Source: Burkholderiales bacterium
Lineage (GTDB): Bacteria > Pseudomonadota > Gammaproteobacteria > Burkholderiales > Burkholderiaceae_E
DNA: 64,000 bases
Assembly (NCBI GenBank): GCA_026399875.1
Contig: JAPLQF010000023.1
Location: 62,001-126,000 of the forward strand
Direction: 5' to 3'
The notes under the pieces: generated by a model
Told to the model about the DNA's origin: nothing
Seen by the model: only the letters and a program-made list of their open reading frames with translations
Databases searched by the model: none
Made by a program: the position numbers and the translations under genes
Shown: positions 5,047 to 6,015 of the stretch, in pieces
Layout: each line of letters starts with the position of its first letter
Numbering within the stretch: the first letter of the stretch is position 1

Positions 5047-6015
5047 ATGCCGCTTGCGTCTGCTCCCACTGTAATCGTCACCGGCGCGTCGTCGGGTGTC
5101 GGTCTGTATGCGGCCAAGGCGCTTGCCGCTCGTGGCTGGCTGGTCATCATGGCCTGCCGAGACGTGGGCAAGGCGAAGGCGGCTGCCCGTGCGCTCGGGA
5201 TCGACCCCGAACGCTATCGGATCATGCAGATCGACCTTGGCTCGCAACGCAGCGTGCGTCAGTTTGCCGATGACTTCATGACAACCGGCTTGCCGTTGCA
5301 TGCGCTGGTCAACAATGCAGCGGTCTACCTGCCCCGACTGACCGAACCGGCGCGCTCTCCCGAGGGCTTCGAAATCAGTGTGGCCACCAATCATCTCGGG
5401 CATTTTCTGCTCAGCATGCTGCTGCTTGGGAAGTTGGGCACGGCAAGCGGCCCAGCCCCCCGCCTCATCACGCTTGGCACGGTGACCGCAAACTCCGAGG
5501 AATTCGGCGGCAAAGTGCCGATCCCTGCGCCTGCCGATCTCGGCGATCTGAAAGGTCTGGAGGACGGTTTCCTGGCGCCGGTAGCGATGATCGACGGCAA
5601 GCCCTTCAAGGCCGGCAAGGCCTACAAGGACAGCAAGCTGTGCAACATGATCATCAGTCGCGAACTGCATCGGCGCTATCACGCACAAACCGGCATTGTC
5701 TTCAGCACGCTCTATCCGGGCTGCGTGGCCGATACCGCGCTGTTTCGGCACACGCCGAAGGCTTTCCAGCGCATCTTTCCGTGGTTCCAGAAAAACATCA
5801 CCAAAGGCTATGTGAGTCAGGAGCTGGCGGGTGATCGGGTGGCGCAGGTCGTGGCCGATGCAGGCTTCAAGACCTCGGGGGTGCACTGGAGCTGGGGAAA
5901 CCGGCAGAAGGAAGGGCGCGATGCGTTTTCGCAGCCGCTCTCAGCCAAAGCAAACGACGAGGCCCGCGCAAGGCGCCTTTGGTCGTACAGTGAGCGGATG
6001 GTCGGCTTGGCCTGA
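5047..6015 (+). CDS. por: Light-dependent protochlorophyllide reductase (LPOR)
   Basis: A 322-residue short-chain dehydrogenase that matches the cyanobacterial LPOR pattern along its whole length, which is also the length of the Synechocystis enzyme. LPOR reduces the C17-C18 double bond of protochlorophyllide with NADPH in a light-driven reaction. Visible are the nucleotide loop TGASSGVG (12-19), [40 protein letters not shown]-like [22 protein letters not shown] with Tyr193 and Lys197, YPGCVADT with Cys226, [20 protein letters not shown] and [11 protein letters not shown]. These go far beyond generic SDR similarity. The ATG at 5047 is chosen from family length; there is no clear Shine-Dalgarno before it. 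No bch, puf or other pigment gene is in the window, and acquisition by transfer is likely. Confidence 0.88.

Follow-up and report, generated by a model that had tools for sequence, protein, structure and literature searches.

The LPOR locus and its neighborhood

The window analyzed here is a 64,000-nucleotide stretch within a 137,869-base contig (C45) of a Burkholderiales assembly (G000; 46 contigs, 4.0 Mb, 94.5% complete). An open reading frame at 5047-6015 on the forward strand is translated, without internal stops, into a 322-residue protein resembling light-dependent protochlorophyllide oxidoreductase (LPOR), and lies in the following gene row (G001-G004 are related genomes):

2080-3741, reverse strand: thiolase-like gene, divergent neighbor of the P450 gene (NF006104, below cut-off; PF18313; PF22691), kept with it in G001-G004
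3758-4990, forward strand: cytochrome P450 gene, upstream, with a 56-bp gap to the LPOR gene (PF00067; 93-96% identical protein in G001-G004)
5047-6015, forward strand: LPOR gene, 322 aa (TIGR01289 at 474 bits, LPOR relatives in the PDB, tree placement, catalytic residues)
6044-6123, forward strand: remnant of a Kir-type potassium channel gene, C-terminal part (80-85% nucleotide matches to the Kir-type stretches of relatives)
6207-6815, forward strand: carbonic anhydrase gene, next downstream (PF00484; 93-95% identical in G002-G004)

The P450 start at 3758 is an ATG of our choosing, the mechanically called frame beginning at 3665; its stop ends at 4990, which bears out the 56-bp spacing given in an earlier note on this DNA. 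The LPOR and P450 genes share a GC content of 0.624 (0.627 for the window) and are alike in GC3 (0.752 and 0.754, respectively). None of 17 photosynthesis-cluster queries, taken from G000 and from G022 (a genome of the same family), matched inside the window, in line with the remark in the same note that it holds no chlorophyll gene. No promoters or terminators were found in a scan of 3500-6900 (chance expectation 0.8 and 2.5, respectively).

Around the LPOR gene, the main blocks of the contig are 87-96% identical to genus mates. A P450 orthologue lies directly upstream of LPOR in G001, where the order is P450, LPOR, Kir-type channel gene, and directly upstream of an LPOR-less site in G002-G004; in G003 and G004 the order is P450, Kir, carbonic anhydrase, with LPOR absent. 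Downstream of LPOR in G001, and of the P450 gene in G003 and G004, stands a full-length Kir-type frame, which in G002 is cut short by the end of the contig; PF17655, PF07885 and PF01007 were tested on two of the copies, those of G001 and G003. The carbonic anhydrase orthologue is found behind Kir on the same contig in G003 and G004 (with ∼2 kb between them in G004) and on a separate contig in G002, and had no match at 1e-40 in G001.

Sequence features of the LPOR

The protein covers positions 3-315 of the 315 in the LPOR profile TIGR01289 (NCBIfam), its score of 474 bits lying far above the curated threshold of 331.35; the second-ranking NCBIfam family reaches 137 bits, below its own cut-off, and no other SDR (short-chain dehydrogenase) of G000 itself exceeds 50.7 bits against the same LPOR profile. 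The closest PDB relative, the Thermosynechococcus LPOR (6l1h/6rnv), aligns without gaps from residue 6 to residue 322 in both proteins and shares the catalytic residues. An NADPH motif, GASSGVG, begins at residue 13; together with the SDR catalytic residues Tyr193 and Lys197 it is invariant in 85 aligned LPOR rows (three of them duplicates) except at Ala14 (82 Ala, 3 Thr), and T145, Y193, K197, Y223, C226 and Q248 are identical in all 85. The earlier note had proposed a 322-residue LPOR with Tyr193, Lys197 and Cys226 and had quoted diagnostic blocks; the profile score upholds the assignment, and both the residues, at the numbers claimed, and the blocks are present in the translation. Judged from its sequence, the gene encodes a genuine LPOR and not a generic SDR, with a catalytic activity predicted from characterized homologues.

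The literature discusses four cysteines (PMC7947762), which are said to take part in substrate binding. We take them to be those at positions 37, 89, 199 and 226, of which the window protein has Cys37, Cys199 and Cys226, with asparagine at position 89. Across the 85 rows, residue 89 is cysteine in 56, asparagine in 21 and leucine in 8; since it varies in this way, Cys89 does not define the family. Among the named loci, the top 80 of 568 confirmed stretches, whose group counts are no census, Asn89 occurs in 17 of 25 betaproteobacterial rows and Cys89 in all 27 cyanobacterial ones. Asn89 is also found where LPOR adjoins bch genes, as in L026, L030 and L071. Among LPORs from anoxygenic phototrophs, a cysteine at position 89 is not a constant.

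Phylogenetic placement

The LPOR-only tree comprises 82 LPORs and no SDR rows; for display, its root was placed on the cyanobacteria. Rows L099, L100 and L162 were left out of both trees constructed, because they are apparently the same records as L043, L019 and L038, and L042 was trimmed to its first 335 residues. A branch with 100/100 support separates 27 cyanobacterial rows from 55 proteobacterial and Gemmatimonas rows, and the window protein branches with the LPORs on the non-cyanobacterial side, in agreement with the earlier note's reading. It pairs with L019 (apparently the LPOR of G001; 90% identity) at 100/99 support, and these two join L020, the nearest LPOR outside the genus among the named loci listed, at 98/84. 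Betaproteobacterial rows, a label taken from record titles (one of which names Bordetella), do not form one clade but need six label changes, and the G022 LPOR (row L043), from the same family as G000, falls in another part of the tree. Such scattering fits repeated transfer, as argued by Chernomor et al. (PMC7947762), and the window gene would have arrived by horizontal transfer within the proteobacterial/Gemmatimonas LPOR pool.

In a second tree, which included four SDRs of G000, three split off with an SH-aLRT of 98, and the fourth (L012, with an end branch of 10) was drawn inside a betaproteobacterial LPOR group, a placement that we read as a long-branch artefact. Because this outgroup tree is poor, with end branches of up to 10, the LPOR-only tree was relied on.

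Phototrophy genes of the host genome

Two Photo_RC genes lie on contigs other than the window's (356.9 and 326.3 bits; cut-off 27); which encodes L and which M was assigned, in our reading, by order and length. Four nitrogenase-like subunits are likewise encoded on other contigs. DPOR, on contig C15, comprises BchL (TIGR01281, 455.8 bits vs. a cut-off of 345), BchN (NF002768, 589.9 vs. 324, on the matched part) and BchB (TIGR01278, 617.9 vs. 490). The fourth nitrogenase-like gene lies at the end of contig C24, behind bchC, and its 87% match in locus L071 adjoins a bchZ match; by position we take it to be bchY. BchH, BchZ, BchC, BchG and BchP also exceed curated cut-offs on other contigs, as do the three DPOR subunits, and AcsF reaches 458.2 bits (cut-off 192.5). 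For the RuBisCO large chain, no PF00016 match was found in G000 (94.5% complete), with matches in 5 of 14 control genomes.

Chernomor et al. describe as putative aerobic anoxygenic phototrophs those genomes that encode BchL, BchN and BchB, a type II reaction center, and AcsF and/or BchE, and that lack RuBisCO and/or PRK (PMC7947762). By this rule, we regard the host as a putative aerobic anoxygenic phototroph of the Burkholderiales carrying both LPOR and DPOR, so that an uncultured Burkholderiales lineage joins the LPOR-bearing anoxygenic phototrophs. The earlier note had left a choice between such a phototroph, with its other bch genes elsewhere, and an orphan LPOR with a new role, and had named acsF, bchLNB, bchZ and reaction-center genes among those to look for. 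These were found outside the window, along with BchH, BchC, BchG and BchP and no RuBisCO match, which favors the former; the latter is not supported, as the usual bacteriochlorophyll pathway exists in the same genome. The note had also stressed how unexpected the context is: the LPOR itself is real, but it is less surprising than the note suggests, since a 2020 study had already described LPORs in Burkholderiales (PMC7947762).

Distribution among relatives

LPOR exceeded the cut-off in 3 of 101 relatives including G000 itself (G000, its congener G001, and G022 from within the family) and, among 399 genomes of the order sampled separately, in two (G000 and G380); at most 19 and 5 candidates per genome, respectively, were scored at strict E-values, and LPOR fragments could be missed. 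BchB is above its cut-off in all four LPOR-bearing genomes, and BchZ in G000, G001 and G022, the G380 copy being a 226-position fragment at a contig end. With so few bearers, all with BchB, LPOR is rare in these samples and co-occurs with DPOR. Photo_RC genes occur in 31 of the 101 relatives, among them all 12 genomes of the genus of G000; G022 gave no Photo_RC match. In that genus BchB is above its cut-off in 10 of 12 genomes, and a search at E 1e-100 gave no LPOR match in 10 of 12 (75-98% complete). As these ten have no LPOR match while all 12 have Photo_RC, LPOR is not needed for phototrophy.

A phage collection gave no LPOR match at E 1e-60. At the same threshold, the matching plasmid records were three from Dinoroseobacter and one from Pseudanabaena; with matches from these two genera only, nothing links the window LPOR to a plasmid.

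Genomic context of LPOR genes

The window LPOR lies outside its own genome's photosynthesis cluster, between P450 and carbonic anhydrase genes. By contrast, flanks of up to 10 kb contain a bch, acsF or DUF3623 gene in at least 15 of 24 other betaproteobacterial LPOR loci (named loci, the best 80 of 568), a lower bound given the set of 17 queries and the shortness of many contigs; four of the same 24 have only an alpha/beta-hydrolase akin to that beside bchP in G000, and five have none of these. The DUF3623 gene, which matches PF12291, is presumably puhE. L020 adjoins DUF3623 and acsF, and the row in G022 is bchP, hydrolase, LPOR, DUF3623, acsF. A move of the LPOR gene out of the host's own photosynthesis cluster was considered and is not supported: in the host's photosynthesis stretches L003, L004, L005 and L018, including the acsF/DUF3623 place at which L020 and G022 carry LPOR, a search for an LPOR remnant gave only chance-level matches (best E 0.03).

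Non-cyanobacterial LPORs, including those of Burkholderiales, were published by Chernomor et al. in 2020 (PMC7947762). Among them, the LPORs of Limnohabitans sp. 15K and Polynucleobacter share the family, order and non-cyanobacterial side of the tree with the window LPOR, and their hosts are of the same kind as G000 (DPOR, AcsF, type II reaction center, no RuBisCO found). The Limnohabitans 15K protein, of another lineage, is 68.9% identical to the window LPOR. That of Dinoroseobacter shibae (Dshi_4160, plasmid pDSHI05) is 69.7% identical. Its gene, too, is located away from the photosynthesis cluster, and the DPOR of D. shibae is chromosomal (PMC4373377). The D. shibae gene differs in its setting, a 72-kb extrachromosomal element where it sits between a MipA/OmpV gene and acetoin genes, in its place among alphaproteobacterial tree rows, and in keeping Cys89. 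The Thermosynechococcus LPOR falls on the cyanobacterial side of the tree and has Cys89, in contrast to the Asn89 of the window LPOR and its anoxygenic host.

Two observations concern LPOR loci elsewhere. In six loci (L048, L050, L051, L065, L073 and L089), LPOR is preceded at 10-65 bp, on the same strand, by a relative of the hydrolase that adjoins bchP in G000; in five others (L042, L043, L079, L071 and L024) such a hydrolase is on the opposite strand, at 128-267 bp in three and at 1.2 and 6.5 kb in two. Three copies scanned against BchO scored 91-96 bits (cut-off 172.55), and this alpha/beta hydrolase is possibly an LPOR partner or an unnamed hydrolase of the cluster. In L042 (SHXD01000044.1, a Limnohabitans MAG from Baikal), a single 621-aa open frame (9983-11848, forward strand) contains a full LPOR at residues 5-329 (TIGR01289, 439.5 bits) followed by an intradiol catechol dioxygenase at residues 355-614 (PF04444, PF00775), either as a real fusion by stop loss or as an assembly effect.

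Loss in sister genomes and selection

Immediately after the P450 stop, G002 retains 66 bases that are 85% identical to the 3' part of LPOR (score 82; best of 2000 shuffles 33). At the same site, G004 retains ∼30 bases spanning the very end of LPOR, scoring 42 against G001 (best shuffle 33) and 30 against the window (equalled by 1 of 2000 shuffles). A short leader-like match after the P450 stop of G003 is not significant (p 0.05-0.07) and was not counted as a scar. The retained stretches differ, the end kept in G004 being missing from G002 and vice versa, which argues for at least two losses. In the simplest reading, LPOR was probably present at this site in the common ancestor and lost at least twice. 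An unrooted tree of the thiolase-P450 block from the five genomes sets G001 and G004 apart from G000, G002 and G003, and block exchange between species could blur the history of loss. Photo_RC genes persist in G002, G003 and G004, accompanied in the first two by BchB and BchZ; the 770-contig assembly of G004 has a BchZ fragment and gave no BchB match.

Between G000 and G001, LPOR has a dN of 0.047 and a dS of 0.58 (NG86; dN/dS ∼0.08), and the neighboring P450 gene a dN of 0.041 and a dS of 0.56 (NG86). As the differences are mostly synonymous, LPOR has been under selection since the two genomes split, and since it resembles the P450 gene in dN, dS, GC and GC3, it appears to be settled in the genome and kept by purifying selection.

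The new detail is the position of an LPOR outside the photosynthesis cluster, behind a P450 gene, with loss remnants in two sister genomes; no earlier report of such remnants was found among the open-licence papers listed. Twelve genomes of one genus, all with Photo_RC and two with LPOR, form a natural with/without series, in which one can ask what LPOR contributes beside DPOR, a question that the 2020 study leaves open (PMC7947762).

Proposed role and alternative explanations

The explanation that best fits the observations as a whole, and that we hold with high confidence, is that a genuine LPOR would feed bacteriochlorophyll synthesis as a light-dependent supplement to DPOR. The enzyme would bind NADPH and protochlorophyllide (Pchlide), absorb light and reduce C17=C18 to yield chlorophyllide, which chlorophyllide reductase would then take toward bacteriochlorophyll. 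DPOR, an unrelated, nitrogenase-like and ATP-dependent enzyme of the same genome, would perform the same step in the dark. LPOR operates without an oxygen-sensitive iron-sulfur protein, and its contribution would probably be most useful in light and oxygen. It needs no ATP, a point made for D. shibae (PMC4373377). Its gene is probably read through from the upstream P450 gene. Substrate, light dependence and benefit under oxygen are inferred from characterized homologues; Chernomor et al. report that 10 of 11 other LPORs of anoxygenic phototrophs tested were active, and their text names Burkholderiales LPORs, outside the published activity tests, as future work (PMC7947762).

A bolder scenario, in our view improbable, would have the gene freed from cluster control, linked to P450 and independently regulated, its role having shifted either to pigment synthesis released from the cluster's repression by oxygen and light or to a substrate other than Pchlide. 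Very improbable is an orphan LPOR with a new role, performing light-driven hydride transfer on another substrate, perhaps together with the P450. The setting away from the photosynthesis cluster, with a P450 gene ending 56 bp upstream in an order kept in G001, would suit such a partnership, but G002-G004 have lost LPOR and retain the P450 gene, so these do not form an interdependent pair. The change from Cys89 to Asn might likewise hint at another substrate, yet Asn89 is shared with LPORs beside bch genes (L026, L030, L071), the invariant LPOR residues are retained, L020, nearest outside the genus among the named loci listed, adjoins acsF, and the pathway for the usual substrate exists in the genome.

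That DPOR makes LPOR superfluous, and that the gene is being lost and has little function here, we find hardly credible: G002 and G004 do hold only 3' remnants at the same site, and G003 nothing significant, but the G000 copy is intact, with a dN/dS of ∼0.08 against G001. The idea that the protein is a generic SDR, or a cyanobacterial contaminant of the assembly, has a practically negligible chance of being right, for although LPORs belong to the SDRs and 27 cyanobacterial LPORs (among the best 80 of 568 loci) are 64-71% identical to it, the protein scores far above the LPOR cut-off, all 27 lie across a 100/100 branch, the GC content matches that of P450 and window, the 137,869-base contig resembles genus mates, and the separate assembly G001 shows the same P450-LPOR linkage. 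LPOR as a supplement to DPOR is the preferred reading, and the gene looks like a dispensable but selected one.

A reaction-center M-OmpA fusion and other observations

The M-type reaction-center gene of G000 (contig C15; L001 1036-2523, reverse strand) encodes a protein in which Photo_RC (residues 89-341) is followed at residues 394-467 by an OmpA domain (48.5 bits for PF00691, against a cut-off of 27.2); the M-type gene of G001 (L117 1237-2688, forward strand) also has an OmpA domain. Used as a query, the OmpA tail matched in 14 of 30 M-type loci. In seven (G000-G004, G007 and G009) it continues the M gene in frame, and in the other seven (G005, G006, G008, G010, G011, G021 and G071) it ends a separate frame behind the M gene, which carries four CxxCH motifs and is therefore most likely PufC. 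The remaining 16 loci had no OmpA-tail match in 1.5-kb flanks, which do not always cover PufC, and the PufC of G000 itself (PF02276, 469.9 bits) has no OmpA domain. A cell-wall-type domain thus appears to ride on different reaction-center subunits within one genus, possibly as a cell-wall anchor that changed subunit. No paper naming a reaction center-OmpA fusion was found among the titles and abstract openings of the papers listed; the fusion may matter more than the LPOR finding and deserves its own study.

Elsewhere in the window, a 593-aa frame at 194-1975 on the reverse strand contains four rhodanese stretches (PF00581), and ∼14 copies of a 9-base unit occur at 47884-48011, within a 954-aa frame (47353-50217). 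GC content drops to 0.546 at 58001-60000, and a frame just behind this stretch (60043-60504), with no Pfam match at 1e-5, resembles by eye an IS3-type integrase fragment.
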